Shown: positions 16,573 through 24,036 of the stretch, piece by piece | Numbering within the stretch: the first letter of the stretch is position 1 | Layout: every line of letters begins with the position of its first letter | IMG/VR virus record: IMGVR_UViG_3300045911_000042 | Location: 1-24,132 of that record | DNA from: a virus | DNA: 24,132 bases | Strand: one strand, 5' to 3' | Notes under the pieces: generated by a model | What the model was told of the DNA's origin: nothing | The model's database searches: none | Seen by the model: only the letters and a program-made list of their open reading frames with translations | Made by a program: the position numbers and the translations under genes

Positions 16573-17042
16573 TCATTCGCTTTAAAATAATTATTAAATA
16601 TCTCAGCCCTCTCTTTTGGTGGAACATCGCCATATTTTTTATCCTTCTCAATATAACACAATGCAAATAATCTTTGCGGATTTTCCTCTATATCCATACT
16701 TACATCGGTGCTATCTATAAACCTGCCTGCTGTCCATGACTTACTATCTAAGTTTTTCTCAAAATAATAATCTATACCGTTTATGGTTACCGTACTTTTT
16801 GGCTCTTTTGGTATGTAATCAAAATCTTTTATTATTTTTTTATACGCAGTAATGACATCGTCTTTATGTAAACTCATTAAATCCTTCTTTTTTATTTCGG
16901 TAATTTCACTAATTAAGTTAACCATGTCAATAATAGTCAATTCGCCTATTACTATTCCATCCTGCCACTTAAGGTATTTTGCAGCTTGTTTGATAGAATA
17001 ATTATTTATTTTTTTTGGCAATTTTATTTCTAAATATTTCAT
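16443..17042 (-). CDS. Candidate tail assembly chaperone, zero-frame product (gpG-like)
   Basis: 199 aa. It begins MKYLEIKLPKKINNYSIKQA. Its core includes VTINGIDYYFEKNLDSKSWT followed by AGRFIDSTDV, then NPQRLFALCYIE and PKERAEIFNNYF, a pattern I associate with tail assembly chaperones, which hold the tape measure during tail building. Near the 3' end two TTTTTTG heptamers occur in frame, and a second frame without any start codon continues to 16315, matching the lambda G/GT arrangement. Unusually, four genes separate it from the tape measure. The start overlaps the last 41 nt of the upstream glycosyltransferase. Function rests on pattern, frameshift layout and tail context. Confidence 0.6.
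   Translation of the reverse strand: MKYLEIKLPKKINNYSIKQAAKYLKWQDGIVIGELTIIDMVNLISEITEIKKKDLMSLHKDDVITAYKKIIKDFDYIPKEPKSTVTINGIDYYFEKNLDSKSWTAGRFIDSTDVSMDIEENPQRLFALCYIEKDKKYGDVPPKERAEIFNNYFKANDFLDLVGFFLQKYKNIHIGFQILKTAEAKYHAQKAEKIMRRLG
16545..16572 (-). promoter_or_regulatory. Tandem slippery heptamers for -1 ribosomal frameshifting
   Basis: Two copies of T TTT TTG occur in the zero frame, at 16572-16566 (codons GAT TTT TTG) and 16551-16545 (codons TTT TTT TTG within a run of nine T). They are 21 nt apart and sit at the very start of the -1 open frame. I see no strong hairpin or pseudoknot just downstream in this AT-rich stretch. Confidence 0.55.
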
Positions 17043-17697
17043 CTGCTATTTTGTTTTGAATTGATTGGTCTTTATTTCTAAAACTCTCGTAAATTGAAAA
17101 TTCATCAGGCAATAATATAGGTCTAATCCAGCCATGCTCATGTTTCGCACATACTATTTTTTTGTTTTTTTTAGATGCCTCTAAGCTAAAGACTAAATCG
17201 CTCATCAACTTATATTCACTATTGTGTATTATAGGCTTAAAATAATCCGTTTTAAAAGCCGTTACTCCTGTCCCGGCTACATCTATTATAACATCTTCGT
17301 TTACCGCATCTAAACACCTATATGCCTTGTTTCCCGTGTAGTAATTTCTACCCTCCGAAATTATTTCCCTGCCATGATAAGTAACTATACAACCATGTAT
17401 ATTTATTTTTTTTATCGTTTCATCCACATAATTCTTAGGGTAAAGTAAGTCATCGTCAAGAGTAAAATAATAGCAATCTTCTTTTAACTCGCTTAAAAAA
17501 TAGAACTTGCCATTATCGGTTAAGTCATCTCCGAGTTTAAAATTTAGATTCCTGTACTTCCTTAAGAAAGAAGGTGCCTCAACACAATTATTCAAATAAA
17601 TATTTATTTCGTCAAACTGAAAAAATATAGTTTCCAACATTACCTCTAAATGTCCAAATCTACTTCTGTGAGTTGATATGTTGGCCGTTGTTTTCAA
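17002..17697 (-). CDS. Glycosyltransferase, GT-A-like, with DDD motif
   Basis: 231 aa. After an N-terminal STHRSRFGHLEVMLETIFFQ segment, residues 78-87 (FTLDDDLLYP) hold a triple aspartate expected to bind metal and nucleotide sugar. AGTGVTAFKTDYF (141-153) and MSDLVFSLEA (165-174), the latter likely containing the catalytic acid region, follow. The layout is that of GT-A-fold enzymes that move a sugar from a nucleotide donor. No membrane segment is present, so it acts in the cytoplasm. Its start forms an ATGA overlap with the GT25-like gene, so the enzymes are likely made together. Acceptor unknown: virion protein, DNA or host glycan are all possible. Confidence 0.75.
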   Translation of the reverse strand: MKTTANISTHRSRFGHLEVMLETIFFQFDEINIYLNNCVEAPSFLRKYRNLNFKLGDDLTDNGKFYFLSELKEDCYYFTLDDDLLYPKNYVDETIKKINIHGCIVTYHGREIISEGRNYYTGNKAYRCLDAVNEDVIIDVAGTGVTAFKTDYFKPIIHNSEYKLMSDLVFSLEASKKNKKIVCAKHEHGWIRPILLPDEFSIYESFRNKDQSIQNKIADEIFRNKIAKKNK

Positions 17698-18302
17698 AAC
17701 TTTAAAGTGTCTCCTTTCAAAACTACGCTTGTTATATCAGATTGGCTGGTTGCTTGCCACGTCATTGACTTTTTTACTATATAACAATTATTATCTTTCT
17801 GAAATTTAGTAAACAAAACATCAACTTTATTTTTCTCGCTTAGCAAAACATTCAACAACCTATCTATACATGAGTTATTTATTATATAGCTATGAGTGCA
17901 TAATACATTATTTGCTTTATTGAACGGTAAATCAGGCATCTCTATTATTGAATTTTCAAAAGTATATACATTTCCTCCTAAGTAAAGCAAATCGAAATCT
18001 ATATTTTTATTTAATAAATTATAAATATCATCTTTCTTAATTTCATCTGCGAAAATACAGTCATCTTCCAGCACAAGGGTATATCCTATTCTTTCATGTA
18101 TTGAGTTTAAAAGTTTTATATGGCTATCAAGGCATCCATAATGACCTTTCATTAATTGCGAAATATTTATTGATTTATATTTTTCTTTTCCGTTTACTGC
18201 ATCTACGAAAGAATAATCGTCAATCCCTATTTTTTTTAATTCGCAAATAATGCTTCTTCTCCTGTCTTTTCTGTTCTTAAGATTAATTATTTTTGTTTTC
18301 AT
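17694..18302 (-). CDS. Glycosyltransferase family 25-like protein
   Basis: 202 aa. It shows the GT25 series: KIINLKNRKDRR at residues 4-15, FVDAVNGKE (32-40), GHYGCLDSHIKLL (53-65), LVLEDDCIF (76-84) with the acidic motif, DLLYLGG (104-110) and a C-terminal QATSQSDI (183-190). GT25 enzymes build lipooligosaccharide or modify proteins such as collagen, using nucleotide sugars. It is shorter than bacterial LPS GT25 enzymes but no motif is missing. ATGA overlaps on both sides join it to the other two transferases. No signal peptide. Confidence 0.85.
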   Translation of the reverse strand: MKTKIINLKNRKDRRRSIICELKKIGIDDYSFVDAVNGKEKYKSINISQLMKGHYGCLDSHIKLLNSIHERIGYTLVLEDDCIFADEIKKDDIYNLLNKNIDFDLLYLGGNVYTFENSIIEMPDLPFNKANNVLCTHSYIINNSCIDRLLNVLLSEKNKVDVLFTKFQKDNNCYIVKKSMTWQATSQSDITSVVLKGDTLKF

Positions 18303-19009
18303 CTGCTTATGAGTGGGTTTTTACTCCTTAAATTATAGTGCATCTTACTATCATGCGCGCCATGAAAAGCAAGTGAATAGTTAGGAAAAGGCAAGTATAT
18401 GTTTATATCTAATTGATTCATCCTGTTTGTCAGTTGATAACCGACACCGCTGCTTATTTCCTCATTAATAAACCACTCTATAGGTACTGCATCTATCTTG
18501 AATTGTAGTTTTTTTAATGTTTCGTAATTACAGAAAAATCCGCAATCAACATAAAAACACCTTTGGTATTTTTTTTTGTTTATCACTTGGGTGAAAGCAG
18601 ATTTATTATTCCAACACATTGTTCTTCCATCAAATATTATATTGTGAGCGTATGCACTATAATTCAGTTCGCTATGTATTTTAATTATTTTTTTTATTTG
18701 TATATTAGAAAAATCATCAGGTATAAACAAATATAAATCATGTTTTGGCAAGTTTCTGATAATATCAAAAGACTTCCTCCACATCTTATAATGGTTTCTT
18801 TTTCCGTACCTCTCGTTTGTTCTAATGTATTGGCATAGATTAGCATGTTCTTTATAATCGTAGTTTGAGCAATCATCAATAACTATAACAGTATCTACAT
18901 TCCCGTTTAGTTCCAGTAATGTGTTCATTAGCATATTTGGTCTATCGCAGCTTAAAACGACAGCACAGATTCTAGTAGTATTTATATCTTGCGTTTCCTG
19001 ATTTGTCAT
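18299..19009 (-). CDS. Glycosyltransferase, GT2-like
   Basis: 236 aa. Residues 14-29 (ICAVVLSCDRPNMLMN) and 38-49 (VDTVIVIDDCSN) form the nucleotide-binding start of a GT2/GT-A fold. FIPDDF at 95-100 is the DxD-like metal site. FYVDCGFFCNYETLKKL and LAFHGAHDSKMH follow; the last resembles the histidine-rich tails of phage and capsule transferases. It overlaps the large terminase gene by 38 nt and couples to the GT25-like gene by ATGA, so it is expressed with packaging and morphogenesis genes rather than with early genes. Acceptor and sugar cannot be read from the sequence. Confidence 0.75.
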   Translation of the reverse strand: MTNQETQDINTTRICAVVLSCDRPNMLMNTLLELNGNVDTVIVIDDCSNYDYKEHANLCQYIRTNERYGKRNHYKMWRKSFDIIRNLPKHDLYLFIPDDFSNIQIKKIIKIHSELNYSAYAHNIIFDGRTMCWNNKSAFTQVINKKKYQRCFYVDCGFFCNYETLKKLQFKIDAVPIEWFINEEISSGVGYQLTNRMNQLDINIYLPFPNYSLAFHGAHDSKMHYNLRSKNPLISR

Positions 19010-20150
19010 ATTTTAAGAAAAAGTATTTGATTGCATCCATTGCGTGGTCATTCTTTTTAAGCGGCACATTCAAATTATTTCCATTCTTATCCGTTTCCCA
19101 AATGTAATTGTTTTTTTCGTAAATGATGTTTTTGCTTTGCTCTGTGATTAATATTTTTTTTGACTGCACTATTGATATACCGAATACTACAGAGCCTGTT
19201 CCTTTTTCTGTCGCTGTAATTAATAATCCCTTTCTTCTTAAAGCCTCTATAGCTTTCGGCTCTGCGCTATCCGCATAAATATAAACTGAATTATTTATTT
19301 TATTTTTTATTTCTAAAAACAAATCATCATCCGTCAATCCTGTTTTGTATAGTATCTCATCAACAATAAATGCATCGTTGTATTTGTACACCGCAACGAG
19401 CGCCGTAAAAGAATTGCTAAATCCAAAGTCAAGACCATAACCTAATAGCTTTGCTTCGCTTGGTATATTAGTTACCACCTCCCATCCATCATAAACAGTT
19501 CCCATTAACGAGCCTATATTGCCTAAACCATACACTTGCCAAAGGTTTGCGAAATATTTATTTTTTATTTCACCATTATCAAAATACCCGAGTTTATAAT
19601 AGTTCATTATCTCTTTTCTTTCTCTATCACTTAACTGTTCATTATCTTTAAATGTTAGCTGTAAAAAATCACAATCATCGCGAGTTAAAACATGTTCATC
19701 AATAAAAAAGTGTGCATCAGGGTTATAGTCTGCATAAACTATTTGTGCTCTTGTGCTTATCTGTCTATATCCCTCGAATGAAATTTTATTTACTTCATTA
19801 AAATAAGCCACATGACATCTGAATCCTTTACCTGCATCATCCTTATCTAATCCCATGAATTTAATAAACGAGCCGTTTGGAAATCTGTACATAACACCGC
19901 CTATCAGTCTTTGCGGCATAAATATACCTATCTCTCTCATTATGTTTATGAAGTCTTTTATTACTGTTACCCTCATTTTGGTTAACTCATGAGATATGAC
20001 AAATACCTCCCTGTACTCTTTATTCAGGCAATGGTTGATAAGAATTATTAGAATAGATATTGTTTTACCTGCACCCTGCCCACCTCTAACTATCCGTATC
20101 GGTTTCTTTAGCTGTGATATCTTCTTTAGTGCTGTTGTCGCCTGTATCAT
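18972..20150 (-). CDS. terL: Terminase large subunit
   Basis: 392 aa. ATPase domain: Walker A GGQGAGKT (23-30), Walker B HVAYFNEV with E119 as catalytic base, and the coupling-type segment DYNPDAHFF (141-149). Nuclease domain: GLDFGFSNSF with D241, YADSAEPKAIE with D294, and NDHAMDAIKYFF with D368/D372, the RNase H-like metal site. It pumps DNA into the prohead through the portal and cuts the concatemer. A complete protein at the short end of the family's range. It overlaps the small-subunit gene by 65 nt. The portal, usually the next gene, is more than 12 kb downstream. Confidence 0.95.
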   Translation of the reverse strand: MIQATTALKKISQLKKPIRIVRGGQGAGKTISILIILINHCLNKEYREVFVISHELTKMRVTVIKDFINIMREIGIFMPQRLIGGVMYRFPNGSFIKFMGLDKDDAGKGFRCHVAYFNEVNKISFEGYRQISTRAQIVYADYNPDAHFFIDEHVLTRDDCDFLQLTFKDNEQLSDRERKEIMNYYKLGYFDNGEIKNKYFANLWQVYGLGNIGSLMGTVYDGWEVVTNIPSEAKLLGYGLDFGFSNSFTALVAVYKYNDAFIVDEILYKTGLTDDDLFLEIKNKINNSVYIYADSAEPKAIEALRRKGLLITATEKGTGSVVFGISIVQSKKILITEQSKNIIYEKNNYIWETDKNGNNLNVPLKKNDHAMDAIKYFFLKYDKSGNARYKYY

Positions 20151-20547
20151 CTAATGGGTCTATGTTTAAAACTTTGAAAGTTGCACTTGCGTTCACATTA
20201 TCACCTATCGCATTTATTCTGGCAACTAAATTGGGTGCTTTATATTTACCTGTGAGCGTTCCGGAAATTTGGTCGTTCTGCCATTCATTCCTAATATGTG
20301 TAACAATTGGCACGAATTCAGCGTATTTGTTTCTGTAATTATCTATATAATGATTGATTCCATAGCCAAGTTTATTAAAAGCAAATGCCTCAAAACCTTG
20401 TCTCGTAAATGGCTTTCTCACTTTCAATTCAACCACATCCCCTTTTGGAGTAGCCTGTTGAATCAAGTCATAACCTACATTATCTTTATACTCATTCCAA
20501 AGTTCAAGTAATTGTTTCGGGTCTTGCATATATTTTTTCCTTCCCAA
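20086..20547 (-). CDS. terS: Terminase small subunit
   Basis: 153 aa. The N-terminal MQDPKQLLELWNEYKDNV, the RKPFTRQGFEAFAFNKLGYG segment and the central helix with IRNEWQNDQISGTLTGKYKA follow the small-terminase pattern of many Gram-negative phages: a DPExLxELxxEYK start, a P-x-T-x-QGF-E block and a Q..G....Y.AN.VAR end. The acidic tail (DDTGDNSTKEDI) may contact the large subunit. It recognises phage DNA and starts packaging. It lies directly before the large subunit with a 65-nt overlap. Confidence 0.8.
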   Translation of the reverse strand: MGRKKYMQDPKQLLELWNEYKDNVGYDLIQQATPKGDVVELKVRKPFTRQGFEAFAFNKLGYGINHYIDNYRNKYAEFVPIVTHIRNEWQNDQISGTLTGKYKAPNLVARINAIGDNVNASATFKVLNIDPLDDTGDNSTKEDITAKETDTDS

Positions 20548-20551
20548 TTTA

Positions 20552-20785
20552 TTATTTTTTTTTATTTAAGTTATCGTAAAAATTGGATAATCTTACTAGT
20601 GCATCATGTACGCATGATGCGCAATAAAGGTTTATTTTTGAGCCACCAATTTCTAAAAGAGCCTCTTGCAGCAATTGTTTTTCTGTTGAAGATATTTTTA
20701 TCTTATTGCCCGAGAAATAATAATTTCTAAGGGGCAAGAATATTTTCATAAATTTATTTAGGTTAGGATATTTTTGTTTATTCAT
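20552..20785 (-). CDS. Small protein with a CxxC motif, unknown function
   Basis: 77 aa, rich in Lys and Leu, with a C-terminal KINLYCASCVHDALVRLSNF segment containing a C-x-x-C pair and a nearby His, which could bind a metal. Short proteins with this YCxSCVHDAL element occur close to the small terminase in Bacteroidota phages as I know them, without assigned function. It ends 4 nt before the terminase start and overlaps the upstream membrane-protein gene by 8 nt. It could be a DNA- or RNA-binding accessory of packaging, but this is a guess. Confidence 0.6.
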   Translation of the reverse strand: MNKQKYPNLNKFMKIFLPLRNYYFSGNKIKISSTEKQLLQEALLEIGGSKINLYCASCVHDALVRLSNFYDNLNKKK

Positions 20786-21077
20786 ACGTCATTAGTTTAT
20801 CGATTAAAGAAGCTATGAGGAAAGAGGATATGGTGATTGTTATATTGTTATATAAGTTTGTGTTGAAAAGCATAACTATGAATACGTTGCGCATTATCCA
20901 GCATGGGAAGCAGTCAAAATACTTATTATGTATGAAAGTATATTTGTTAGCTTTTTTTATCGAGCGTGTTTTAATAAAATAGAATAATTTCTTTAAATAC
21001 ACATGCGCGGATAGTGTGTAGAAGCTAAAGAAGGTGGCGCTAAAAGTTAGCGCAGTCAAAATCAATAAATCTTTCAT
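20778..21077 (-). CDS. Small membrane protein, unknown function
   Basis: 99 aa from ATG 21077. Residues 2-22 (DLLILTALTFSATFFSFYTL) form one membrane segment. After a basic stretch (KKLFYFIKTRSIKKANK) there is FDCFPCWIMRN with a CxxCW-type motif and a second hydrophobic region (about residues 57-92). Membrane proteins with a CxxCW turn are common in Bacteroidota phages and have no agreed role. It overlaps the sigma-like gene by 38 nt. In-frame codons upstream to 21182 lie inside that gene and are not used here. Superinfection exclusion or lysis timing are possible but unsupported. Confidence 0.55.
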   Translation of the reverse strand: MKDLLILTALTFSATFFSFYTLSAHVYLKKLFYFIKTRSIKKANKYTFIHNKYFDCFPCWIMRNVFIVMLFNTNLYNNITITISSFLIASLIDKLMTYE

Positions 21078-21477
21078 AGAGTATTTTTTTTTGTTTATTA
21101 AATTGGTAGTAAATTTTATTTTTTTTATTTTCGTTAATCTTGCCTGATTTAAGGAAGTCATAAATAAGTTGTTTATCCGCATCAGGCATTTTGGGTAATT
21201 CAGAATCTAAGAATTTTCTAAAGCAATCAGTTGTGCTTGATATATTTGGAGATATTTCGCAGGTGTTTACTCGTTCTTTATGTGATTTATTAAAGGAAGA
21301 ATAATTGTTTCTCCATTCGTTTTTTGCTATTGTTTTAAAATATTTTATTTTTTCCTCATCATTTTTTAGTTTTCTTTCTTTTTGGTTCAGCAAAATCCAT
21401 GAGTGCTGAAAGAGGTCGAGGTGAAGCGATGAGTTATTAGTTAATATTTGGCAGTATTTAATCAATTGCTCGTACAT
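21040..21477 (-). CDS. Sigma-factor-like transcription protein
   Basis: 145 aa. The N-terminal half has the shape of sigma-70 region 2: LHLDLFQHSWILLNQ (residues 18-32) resembles the DLxQExxLxL helix, and KIKYFKTIAKNEWRNNYSSF (43-62) the YxxxIAxNxxxDxxR helix that contacts the -10 element. The C-terminal half (MPDADKQLIYDFLKSGK and the following basic helix) resembles a short region 4. It lies just before the terminase genes, where phages often keep their late-gene regulators. I infer that it may redirect host RNA polymerase to late promoters. Similarity is weak by eye; a plain helical DNA-binding protein is the alternative. Confidence 0.5.
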   Translation of the reverse strand: MYEQLIKYCQILTNNSSLHLDLFQHSWILLNQKERKLKNDEEKIKYFKTIAKNEWRNNYSSFNKSHKERVNTCEISPNISSTTDCFRKFLDSELPKMPDADKQLIYDFLKSGKINENKKNKIYYQFNKQKKILYERFIDFDCANF

Positions 21478-21653
21478 TGATTGAAATAATGGGTTACTGC
21501 TTTTAGTGCAATTTCAGATATTTTTTTTCTTCCGAGTTTCTCTAATACCGGGTAAGGGTAAGAAGTGTGCACCTGAACTTTTTTATTTTCTTGTGATTTT
21601 CTTTTTGCCCCCCTTTTTGATTTAGGAGGTAATGACTGGTTTACTGCTTCCAT
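21462..21653 (-). CDS. Small basic protein, ribbon-helix-helix-like, putative DNA-binding regulator
   Basis: 63 aa from ATG 21653. A basic, disordered N-terminus (PPKSKRGAKRKSQENKK) leads into VQVHTSYPYPVLEKLGRKKI and SEIALKAVTHYF, which reads as a strand followed by two helices, like short CopG/Arc-type DNA binders. The start is chosen because a typical A-rich leader and a TAnnTTTG promoter element precede it; a TTG at 21707 would place the promoter inside the gene. It overlaps the sigma-like gene by 16 nt. Being first after a promoter, it may regulate its own operon. Confidence 0.55.
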   Translation of the reverse strand: MEAVNQSLPPKSKRGAKRKSQENKKVQVHTSYPYPVLEKLGRKKISEIALKAVTHYFNQCTSN

Positions 21654-21680
21654 TATTTTATTATTTAGTTTATTTAAATG

Positions 21681-21708
21681 CAAATATAATAATAATTTTT
21701 GAATCAAA
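21681..21708 (-). promoter_or_regulatory. Putative Bacteroidota-type promoter for the late/regulatory genes
   Basis: On the minus strand TATATTTG (21688-21681) matches the -7 consensus TAnnTTTG, and TTTG (21708-21705) lies 16 nt upstream as a -33 element; known spacing is slightly longer, about 17-23. It lies in one of the few real gaps (21654-21703), about 27 nt before ATG 21653. The match is short and AT-rich sequence makes chance hits possible. Confidence 0.5.
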
Positions 21709-22795
21709 AAATAGATGGTTCTAATTCGTCGTTCAATGATTTGCCGTCTGAATTGAAAAATTTATTTATTAGATCTTCGGAGTTTTTAGGTTCTAATTCT
21801 TTATGTTGATGTATCGTGTTTTTTATTTCGTAAGGTCTTTTAGAATATTTTATTTCTCCAGAGTTGTTTACCCAATAATAATTATTTCTTTTGTAATCCC
21901 AGTATAGTATTGCTTTACCGAGTTTACCTACACCTTTGGGTTTTGATTTTTGAATAAAAAAGTGCAGTTCATTATCTTTGTGCGGTTGTCCGTATTCGTT
22001 ATTTAAAAAAGTTGGTGGGCGATAGCACAATCCCATTTGGAAGCCGCGCCTGTGCCACTCACGACCGCCCGACCATTCGCTTGGCATGGGAACGGGAGTA
22101 TATCTAAGTTTAGTTTCTTTGTCAATAACGGGGGCTATATCTGCCACGTGTGTAATGATAAAATTTACTCTGTTATTTTTTTTTGCATCTCTACGGCATA
22201 TTTTTAATGCACTTGAAATAAAAAAGTCTTGCCTACCGTTGTATTTGTGGCTTTCGTCTATAGCATCATTGAAAGGGTCTAAGTAGGTTGTATCGAAAGA
22301 AATTCCCAATTCATTTTCTATAGAGTTGGCTAAGGAGTAAAATTCGCTTATGGTAAAGTCTGTTATTGATGTGTCTATCTCTTCGGTATCTATGAAATAA
22401 AAGTGCTGTGCGATAAATTGTTCGGCATACATTCTTTCGGATTCGCTCATACAGTAGGTGATAGTTTCTTGTTTAGTGTTTTTTGTTAGGTAGGGCTTGC
22501 CAATAAGTTTATAACACAGTTCAGCTATAAGCTCTGATACGCTACCGCTTTCTCCAGAATAAACTAAATGCTTCCAGCCGTATAGAACGGAAGTGTTTAG
22601 GAGTATCTCTAATCCTAATTCTGTTTTGCCAGAATGTGGACTACCCGCTATGTAGAATGGGTAGCCCTTTTTTAGGGAGCAAATATCGTCTAAGGGTTCA
22701 ATGCCTGTGGATAGACCTTTAACAACGCCATCATATCTAAGTTCTGACAGTTCTTTTATTTTGTCTTCTACGGAAAAATAACTTTTTTTATTCAT
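21704..22795 (-). CDS. DnaB/RecA-like replicative helicase, helicase domain only
   Basis: 363 aa. It starts with a short lead containing KGLSTGIEPLDDI, then Walker A GSPHSGKT (51-58), the H1a-like acid in YSGESGS (E82), Walker B FDTTYLDPFND (D173), H4-like FIITHVAD (H216) and a basic finger region KSKPKGVGKLG (283-293). This is the RecA-type motor of DnaB helicases. The DnaB N-terminal domain is missing, as in many phage helicases. It would unwind DNA as a ring at the phage origin, after loading by the replication protein or its partners. The next gene upstream, a coiled-coil protein, overlaps it by 8 nt and might be a loader or adaptor (inference). Confidence 0.85.
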   Translation of the reverse strand: MNKKSYFSVEDKIKELSELRYDGVVKGLSTGIEPLDDICSLKKGYPFYIAGSPHSGKTELGLEILLNTSVLYGWKHLVYSGESGSVSELIAELCYKLIGKPYLTKNTKQETITYCMSESERMYAEQFIAQHFYFIDTEEIDTSITDFTISEFYSLANSIENELGISFDTTYLDPFNDAIDESHKYNGRQDFFISSALKICRRDAKKNNRVNFIITHVADIAPVIDKETKLRYTPVPMPSEWSGGREWHRRGFQMGLCYRPPTFLNNEYGQPHKDNELHFFIQKSKPKGVGKLGKAILYWDYKRNNYYWVNNSGEIKYSKRPYEIKNTIHQHKELEPKNSEDLINKFFNSDGKSLNDELEPSIF

Positions 22796-23189
22796 AAATA
22801 TTTTTTTTGAGGTTTGTTATTTCTTTTTGTATTTTTTGTAATTCGGATTTAAGCTGGATATTTTCGGAAATTATTTCGTTTGTTGTTTGGATATAAATTT
22901 CTAACTCATTATTTTTTTGAGAGTAAAAAGAGAAAGATTTTAAAAAAAAGTGGTAGCAGTAATTGATTTTTTCAAATTTTTGCTGTAACCTAAGTTTATT
23001 TTCTTCGCTGCCTTTGTAATTTAATAAATCTTTTTTCATGGTTGTTATTAGTTCAGTAAATTCTTGAACATAATCGAGAATATCAACCTCATTTTTTTGT
23101 GATTGGGTAAATTTACTTTTTTTCCATTCAATAAATTTTTTATAATCAAAAATTTTCAAAGTTTTATCAGTGTTTTCTTGCATATTCAA
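22788..23189 (-). CDS. Coiled-coil protein of the replication block, unknown function
   Basis: 133 aa, with a second ATG two codons in (23183). The N-terminal part (IFDYKKFIEWKKSKFTQSQK) is basic and aromatic, the middle is helical, and residues 92-133 form a clear coiled coil (NEIISENIQLKSELQKIQKE). No enzyme motif or membrane segment is seen. Lying between the replication protein and the helicase and overlapping the latter by 8 nt, it may adapt or load the helicase, but nothing in the sequence proves this. Confidence 0.6.
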   Translation of the reverse strand: MNMQENTDKTLKIFDYKKFIEWKKSKFTQSQKNEVDILDYVQEFTELITTMKKDLLNYKGSEENKLRLQQKFEKINYCYHFFLKSFSFYSQKNNELEIYIQTTNEIISENIQLKSELQKIQKEITNLKKNIYE

Positions 23190-23289: not shown

Positions 23290-24036
23290 TTAGCCATAGT
23301 GTTGGGGGTTGAGGTTTGGATTTATTTTTTTTGTATTTTCAAACTTAGAAATGAAGTTTTTAAAAAAGTTTATAACATGGTTTGAGTTACTGAACTGATA
23401 ACCAATTGTTTGAGTGTCTAAATTTTGGGTAAATTCTTCAAGGTTTATTTTTTTGTGAGCGTTCTGCATCATGAGTGCGCTTAGCGTAGTGTTGTGATTT
23501 TCAAAGAAATAAGCTGAAAATTTTTTTTCTATCAGTTCGTTTTCAATGTAAAAAAAATATTTTAAATTTTTATCAGGTATTTTTTTATCAAAATTTTTCT
23601 TTTTTATTATATTTTTTCTTTTTATTTCTTTTTCTTTCTTTTCTTTTATAGCATTGCTGTCGCATTGCGATGGCAATGCGTTCGCATCAGCATTATTTTT
23701 TTTCCACCTATAAAACGCTGACTCTCTTGCTTTTAGAGTTTTTTTATTTCTTTCCTCTAATCGCTCTTTCACGGAGTTACTACCGAAAATTTCGCCATTT
23801 ATTTCAAATAATTGGAAGTCATTGATTATGCTTTTCACAACATCGCAATGCACATTGAATGCGCTAGCAATGCAGTCGTAATCCGTTGGCAATGCGTTCG
23901 CATTATTATATAAATCCTCAACGATTGCCCAGTATATTCCGTAACCCAAATAACCATGCTTACTAATTAGCTTTTTTATTTTATAGTCAGCCCTTGCGTT
24001 GTAATCGTGCGAAAAATAAAATGTTTCTTTTCTCAT
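23290..24036 (-). CDS. Phage replication protein with Lin1244/Lin1753-like (DUF4373) N-terminal domain
   Basis: 248 aa from ATG 24036. Residues 5-90 follow the DUF4373 pattern: FYFSHDYNARADYKIKKLIS, YLGYGIYWAIVEDLY, then FNVHCDVVKSIINDFQLFEI and the ERLEERNKKTLKARESAFYR block. This domain, winged-helix-like and related to DnaD-type primosome proteins, starts phage and plasmid replication genes. A Lys-rich linker (130-150) leads to a helical C-terminal domain (IENELIEKKFSAYFFENHNT onward), perhaps for helicase contact. Two clusters of 11-bp-phased GCAWTGC repeats lie inside the gene. An in-frame GTG at 24105 would add a Cys/Lys-rich N-terminus and run through the leader inverted repeat, so I reject it. 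A 100-nt gap follows. Confidence 0.8.
   Translation of the reverse strand: MRKETFYFSHDYNARADYKIKKLISKHGYLGYGIYWAIVEDLYNNANALPTDYDCIASAFNVHCDVVKSIINDFQLFEINGEIFGSNSVKERLEERNKKTLKARESAFYRWKKNNADANALPSQCDSNAIKEKKEKEIKRKNIIKKKNFDKKIPDKNLKYFFYIENELIEKKFSAYFFENHNTTLSALMMQNAHKKINLEEFTQNLDTQTIGYQFSNSNHVINFFKNFISKFENTKKINPNLNPQHYG
23651..23687. repeat. Iteron-like cluster B in the replication gene
   Basis: Three GCAWTGC heptamers begin at 23651, 23662 and 23673, exactly 11 bp apart, followed by GCAT at 23684. The last unit is the 17-bp TGGCAATGCGTTCGCAT (23671-23687), also found in cluster A. The heptamer is palindromic apart from its central base. GCATTGC-CATG... and its partner also form an inverted repeat around 23662-23679. 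They encode residues about 117-129 of the replication protein. Confidence 0.65.
23845..23903. repeat. Iteron-like cluster A in the replication gene
   Basis: Perfect GCAATGC heptamers start at 23845, 23867 and 23889, 22 bp apart, and degenerate copies (TGAATGC at 23856, GTAATCC at 23878) fill the 11-bp positions between them. The cluster ends in the same 17-bp TGGCAATGCGTTCGCAT (23887-23903) as cluster B. It covers residues about 45-64 of the replication protein. Spacing of 11 and 22 is not a multiple of three, so a peptide repeat does not explain it. Possible replication origin or autoregulatory site. Confidence 0.7.

Follow-up and report, generated by a model that had tools for sequence, protein, structure and literature searches.

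Does a phage replication gene carry its own origin of replication? The question is raised by a 24,132-bp IMG/VR virus record, the whole of which was analysed here and is referred to as the window. Inside one of its genes, short GCAWTGC repeats are grouped in two clusters, at spacings of 11 bp or its multiples. Our observations on this gene and its relatives are of phased sites, constraint at the DNA level, a conserved position, a purine ladder and co-variation of protein residues 106 and 107 with the repeated word. From these comparisons of sequence, we conclude that the two clusters are very probably binding sites (iterons) of the protein that the same gene encodes, and most likely its replication origin.

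An initiator gene with two phased clusters of GCAWTGC

The gene matches the Pfam family PF14297 with an E value of 3.4e-11 and a score of 44.1 bits, above the curated Pfam cut-off of 25, and phrog_2562, "replication initiation protein," with an E value of 1.6e-15. The original prediction had placed the iterons within a replication gene, and these matches of the Lin1244_N/DUF4373 gene bear it out. Lin1244_N was the one match returned from Pfam for the window protein, and a sequence search of the PDB with this protein found no relative. A fold search of the PDB with the N-domain returned weak matches (E values of at least 0.1), FNR, CodY and MarR types among them. In the AlphaFold model (m72903dd57e58), residues 11-110 form helices and a two-strand wing with a pLDDT of 81-98, while the linker encoded by the array is disordered, with a pLDDT below 50 at residues 137-163 and C-terminal helices beyond. 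Residues R110 and W111, at the end of a long helix, are near-invariant among relatives. The features of the gene are as follows.

23290..24036, minus strand: replication initiator gene, 248 aa, ATG at 24036, with a Lin1244_N (DUF4373) N-domain, a disordered linker and C-terminal helices
23773..24018, minus strand: winged-helix-like N-domain, residues 7-88 (Pfam residues 7-88 and AlphaFold)
23695..23778, minus strand: long helix, residues 87-114, with S-A-x-x-R-W at its end, the proposed DNA-reading helix
23649..23693, minus strand: linker cluster, an 11-bp lattice of TGC-N4-GCA-W units
23843..23905, minus strand: second cluster, in the N-domain (codons about 44-65), the same 11-bp lattice, partly degenerate

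All six GCAWTGC copies that had been reported are present, at 23651, 23662, 23673, 23845, 23867 and 23889, and both clusters do end in one common unit (repeat family D1). In the linker cluster, GCA occurs at 23651, 23662, 23673 and 23684 and TGC at 23655, 23666 and 23677; in the second cluster, GCA occurs at 23845, 23867, 23889 and 23900 and TGC at 23849, 23860, 23871 and 23893. The repeat unit is TGC-N4-GCA-W, 11 bp long, and the clusters form an alternating-dyad lattice rather than plain direct repeats. The gene contains the multiple short, helically phased repeats by which an iteron-type origin is recognized, and its linker cluster sits between residue 114 and the C-terminal helices, a layout of the λ O type.

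Across the whole record, GCAWTGC occurs 11 times, compared with 3.81 ± 1.92 times in dinucleotide shuffles, none of 100 of which reached 11. The 24,132 bp contain no further phased pair, so that an equal density of phased heptamers elsewhere, which would speak against the iteron reading, was not found. The initiator gene has 6 copies and 6 phased pairs, neither of which was reached in 20,000 synonymous-codon shuffles (mean, 0.94 copies). By a generic 8-mer lattice score, the window gene does not stand out, with an observed value of 4 and a null maximum of 5. This score being uninformative alone, the strength of the signal rests on the GCAWTGC word and on the comparison with relatives. Neither the purine tract nor the co-varying helix residues described below were part of the original prediction.

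Downstream in the same gene block lies a second replication-type gene.

21704..22795, minus strand: RecA/DnaB-like ATPase (phrog_5482, E value of 7.4e-36; weak DnaB_C and phrog_19 matches)

This ATPase is a candidate helicase or helicase-loading partner of the initiator. In EF62phi and in a Porphyromonas phage, the family member adjoins a DnaC-like loader, whereas the partner downstream in the window is a DnaB/RecA-like ATPase and not DnaC. GC skew is uninformative at the array; its turn from negative to positive values lies elsewhere, at about 20.5 to 21 kb (within positions 20000-23000 of the window). Elsewhere in the window, three adjoining ORFs beside the terminase (17002-19009) look glycosyltransferase-like by eye.

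Phased arrays and a purine ladder recur in relatives

A contig scan with the single protein as the query gave no matches. An alignment was used as the query instead, and the 170 relatives collected were cut to 100 non-redundant genes (<80% identity). An early sign of phasing came from distant phages, whose words differ: Enterococcus EF62phi has ATAGCAAW, Lactobacillus JNU_P2 has AGCAATGC and MT836332 has ATCGCCACCCG. Over the 100 genes, 303 identical 7-mers at a lag of 11 were found in 61 genes, compared with 28.8 ± 7.1 in synonymous shuffles (z = 38). Lags of 22 and 33 also stood out (z = 27 and z = 16, respectively), with no peak at lags of 13, 23 or 34, and the neighboring genes of the same loci, taken as a control, gave 6.7 lag-11 7-mers after length correction. 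The pairs pile up at gene nucleotides 120-200 and 320-440, which are the two places occupied in the window gene (domain codons about 41-66 and the linker). Lag-11 7-mers were absent from 39 of the 100 genes, so that many of the relatives have a degenerate or different array or have lost it. Taken gene by gene, the generic lattice score is too blunt, with 29 of 100 genes exceeding 30 shuffles. In two Bacteroidales genes (L120 and L128), the linker is unusual in being G/A-rich and containing GGGACGAGAAGA-like repeats, beyond which TGGCTGGG words occur at multiples of 11 bp.

The linker array is directly followed by a purine-rich stretch.

23608..23649, minus strand: purine tract AAAAGAAAAGAAAGAAAAAG... 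directly after the linker cluster, an irregular or degenerate form of an AAAG[GT] 5-bp ladder

The ladder itself follows the linker array in 77 of the 100 genes (321 lag-5 8-mers versus 18.9 ± 5.8). When IMG/VR was searched for the array end joined to the ladder (AATGCNATAAAGGAAAGKAAAG), 79 of the 80 listed loci were within Lin1244_N ORFs; the 80th match lies 35 bases from a contig end. We propose that the purine tract, or ladder, is a putative DNA unwinding element.

A working model can be patterned on λ, SPP1 and the helically phased iterons of plasmids. The initiator would bind the 11-bp lattice of short TGC-N4-GCA-W dyads on one face of the DNA, and the dyads would be read by the helix ending in [S/A/G]-[A/V/I/M/N]-x-x-R-W, which is encoded just upstream of the linker array. 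The resulting nucleoprotein complex would wrap or strain the DNA and so open the adjoining purine ladder, at which the phage helicase or its loader, encoded nearby, could enter. What we infer here is direct binding by helix 87-114, opening of the strands at the ladder and activity as an origin. The cluster within the domain may belong to the origin as its second half, or it may act in autoregulation. The 5-bp period of the ladder also prompts the question of what protein might recognize a purine repeat with a 5-nt step as an origin opens.

The initiators of iteron replicons often autoregulate. One alternative, accordingly, is that the initiator does bind these sites but that their main function is regulation of the initiator's own gene, as an autoregulatory operator or a roadblock, and not service as an origin. 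The sites do lie inside the transcribed gene, and the second cluster occupies N-domain codons distant from the ladder. The linker cluster, however, is far from any promoter position and is followed by a ladder in those 77 of 100 genes, and the array together with the ladder fits the layout of the intragenic origins of λ and SPP1. We therefore consider a mainly regulatory role unlikely and favor an origin at which the gene's own product binds.

The iteron word co-varies with residues 106 and 107

The helix just upstream of the linker array carries the motif [S/A/G]-X-x-x-R-W, and its residues 106 and 107 co-vary with the iteron word.

23716..23721, minus strand: codons 106-107 (Ser-Ala), a proposed two-residue specificity code, which predicts CGCA/TGCG sites, as found

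All 82 genes with TGC (GCA/TGC) words have A at residue 107, and all 21 genes with TAC (GTA/TAC) words have V or I there (Fisher's test, 2.5e-22). M107 goes with GTTAT/ATAAC words and, in a few genes, N107 goes with ATC-containing words; under a looser automatic classing, the TGC class included genes with M (three), S (three) or N (two) at residue 107. We scanned IMG/VR for the predicted M word GATAACANTGTTATAACA alone, and all 14 of the Lin1244-type ORFs found carry M107. Seven ORFs with other N-domains in the same scan have GMxxRW too. A corresponding pattern test with the TAC word placed 43 of 76 loci in ORFs matching the Lin1244_N profile, some of them weakly, via the RW helix of other families. 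The remaining 33 loci were mostly chance occurrences with no lattice, in an SSB-like and a polymerase-like gene, and several were in genes with phased arrays that belong to other initiator families.

Residue 106 tracks the base that precedes GCA or GTA: S goes with C (54 of 61), A with T (24 of 29) and G with a purine (10 of 11). The overall concordance of 88 of 101 compares with a mean of 44.5 and a maximum of 61 under a permutation that ignores kinship. On a tree built without the columns for residues 106 and 107, the word changes about 20 times. Well-supported branches hold only three independent switch pairs for TAC and two for TTAT, all of which agree save for an occasional TTAT tie, and the switches across the tree are suggestive, though no formal proof, of independent co-change of the residues and the word.

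The co-variation suggests that two amino acids of the initiator set the letters of its sites. Co-variation by itself does not point to the helix that contacts the DNA, for which helix 87-114 is the candidate. It is plausible that the V, I and M side chains meet the thymine methyl gained in TAC or TTAT words.

We also considered and rejected a trivial overlap, in which the codon for residue 107 would itself lie within an iteron (Ala as GCA, Val as GTA). The Ala codons GCG, GCA, GCT and GCC are used 9, 35, 25 and 21 times, respectively; I and M would be left unexplained; and the phase of the array relative to codon 107 varies. Codon 107 itself is without DNA-level constraint. In Lin1244_N genes that have lost the R-W motif (L095, L136, L170 and L145), the words are of the TTCAAC/CAAC type, as if W111 also sets the word.

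A host protein, or another DNA-binding protein of the phage, would likewise impose constraint at the DNA level if it and not the gene's own product bound these sites. Yet the word switches with the product's own residues 106 and 107 (82/82 and 21/21, with the M prediction at 14/14), and the joint array-ladder motif falls within Lin1244_N ORFs in all but one of the 80 listed loci. Binding by a third party is thus very unlikely, and we retain the gene's own product as the protein that recognizes the sites.

The words are held at the DNA level

That selection acts on the DNA rather than on an encoded repeat, as had been argued from the spacing, is supported by the relatives: the starts of lag-11 and lag-22 pairs are spread equally across the three frames (192, 170 and 162), and synonymous shuffles lose the signal. 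Codon constraint was analysed in the 25 genes of the window's clade (at least 50% identity). The choice among synonymous codons is strongly restricted in two stretches, codons 45-56 and 117-139, while conserved residues over most of the N-domain vary their codons freely. Examples of constrained codons are Asn45 (AAT in 24 of 24), Ala48 (GCA in 20 of 20) and Ala129 (GCT in 20 of 20). Codons 45-56 lie in the second cluster, codons 117-130 correspond to the linker cluster and codons 131-139 to the purine tract, and within the constrained stretches the letters are mostly kept even where the amino acids differ.

Words vary by family yet switch jointly in both clusters. In two genes (L070 and L078), both clusters have TAC/GTA in place of TGC/GCA. 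Six-mers common to the two clusters number 5.33 within a gene, versus 2.99 ± 0.26 when clusters are swapped between genes. Relatives that kept the residues but lost the heptamers would have weakened the iteron reading; we found the reverse, with words and spacing kept while NANAL changes to NTNVL.

These data bear on a protein-level explanation, in which a low-complexity linker repeat rich in Asn, Ala, Lys and Glu would be the selected feature and the DNA pattern its by-product. The linker is indeed predicted to be disordered, and the encoded peptides look repetitive (NANAL, KERKGKE). Neither 11 nor 5 is a multiple of three, however, which counts against a protein-level repeat, as do the equality of all frames and the loss of signal on synonymous shuffling. 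Residues change while the DNA words stay coherent, and one of the clusters is in a folded domain, so that we regard this explanation as extremely unlikely. A neutral process, in which an 11-bp unit was duplicated in tandem or slipped within a linker that tolerates it, could also generate tandem units, and 33-bp steps would stay in frame. Its probability is close to negligible. A single 11-bp slip would break the frame, distant families have the lattice at the two equivalent places with words of their own, and codon choice there is constrained in the window's clade. The word also tracks protein residues outside the array, a co-variation with residues 106 and 107 that already contradicts a neutral origin of the repeats. 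Initiator-binding sites remain our preferred reading of both clusters.

Similar arrays lie behind other initiator domains

TAC words were also found behind DUF1376 domains and an unnamed phage domain, with V or I before xxRW wherever the motif was readable. Among 32 non-redundant DUF1376 genes, the lag-11 count was 36, versus 1.4 ± 1.2, and the pairings were SAxxRW with ATGCGAACGCA, SIxxRW with TACGAACGTA and KANxxRW with ATCAGATCTGA. The DUF1376 ladder (linkers L444 to L522) is a 6-bp ACCAAT/ACCAAG repeat and not AAAG[GT]. Ladder words seem to vary from one initiator family to another. DUF6291 genes have KKGMxxRW with the M word, and a scan for their relatives gave three loci. When the Lin1244_N and DUF1376 profiles were compared, one of which consists of two sequences, the RW helix and the C-terminal part alone aligned. 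One gene of an unnamed family with no Pfam match (L258, 2821-4526; MEKMQWFKFSISEWKMG...) combines VxxRW with a phased TAC array and a purine ladder; the ORF after it appears RecA/DnaB-type ATPase-like by eye.

We think it likely that these genes share a portable initiator cassette, in which a reading helix ([S/A/G]-X-x-x-R-W) with a two-residue code, its own array and a short-period ladder stand behind the N-domains of Lin1244_N, DUF1376, DUF6291 and one unnamed family. In this putative code, residue 107 would pair A with GCA, V or I with GTA, M with GTTA and N with ATC, and residue 106 would specify the base immediately before the word, S pairing with C, A with T and G with a purine. If the code holds, A107V (or I) is predicted to shift preference from TGCGAACGCA to TACGAACGTA, and S106A from CGCA to TGCA. 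If the cassette is real, the protein sequence of the initiator would be enough to predict the origin word in a very large number of phages, and initiator and origin would change specificity in step, within a single gene.

Most origins of metagenomic phages are unknown. If our reading is correct, this initiator group carries its origin at a fixed, sequence-recognizable place, with a site that can be predicted from two residues; the group is common among Bacteroidota and Bacillota, in phages as well as prophages, and has look-alikes in other phages. It would also provide a clear-cut example of co-evolution between a protein and its DNA target in one gene, with the letters of the target dictating part of the protein sequence.

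Comparison with known origins

An intragenic iteron origin is an already known kind of origin. The original prediction held that no iteron set had been described for DUF4373 genes, and nothing in the literature searched contradicts it. The 11-bp dyad lattice and 5-bp ladder in these genes and the two-residue code were absent from that literature, which covered few subscription journals and so is weak evidence of novelty.

Genes of the Phage_rep_org_N family (PF09681) from prophages of Lactobacillales are similar in that linker dyads such as GGACAAATGTCC are followed by a purine ladder. In a set of these genes (L176 to L196), the dyads are GGACAAATGTCC or GTTGCAATGCAAC, and the ladder that follows is a 6-bp GATATA/GAGTTA/GAAAGA repeat. 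The PF09681 linkers apparently have a parallel origin layout, judged by these sequence patterns. They differ in that lag-11 is weak (12 pairs in 7 of 22 genes) and the ladder step is 6 bp, which is codon-compatible; no lag-5 signal was found in the 22 genes. RepA_N plasmids likewise have iterons embedded in the coding linker of the initiator, with the origin inside the rep gene, although RepA_N initiators belong to a different protein family from Lin1244_N.

oriλ lies in the middle of O and contains four iterons (PMC3985674). The likeness drawn to it in the original prediction is apt: the four annotated iterons are in O, and the linker layout is the same here. In λ and, putatively, here, the initiator gene contains repeats of its product's binding site, beyond which come first a stretch rich in A/T and purines and then the genes for helicase loading. 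The λ iterons, however, are 18 to 19 bp long, with starts 20, 24 and 23 bp apart, compared with 11-bp units here, and by the same lag measure the λ O iterons show neither the 11-bp lattice nor the 5-bp ladder. The presence of a second cluster within the N-domain is also unlike λ.

In SPP1, oriL comprises direct repeats within the initiator gene 38, which gp38 binds, and an AT-rich unwinding element; replication also uses the helicase loader gp39 and the DnaB-type gp40 (PMC6316719). By this published description, the window gene resembles oriL/gp38 in having repeats in the initiator gene and an adjoining putative unwinding element. Iteron plasmid origins have short initiator sites in helical phase beside a DNA unwinding element (PMC5043065). 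The sites described here differ in lying within coding sequence, in having an alternating dyad of 11 bp as their unit and in a word that co-varies with two residues of a helix.
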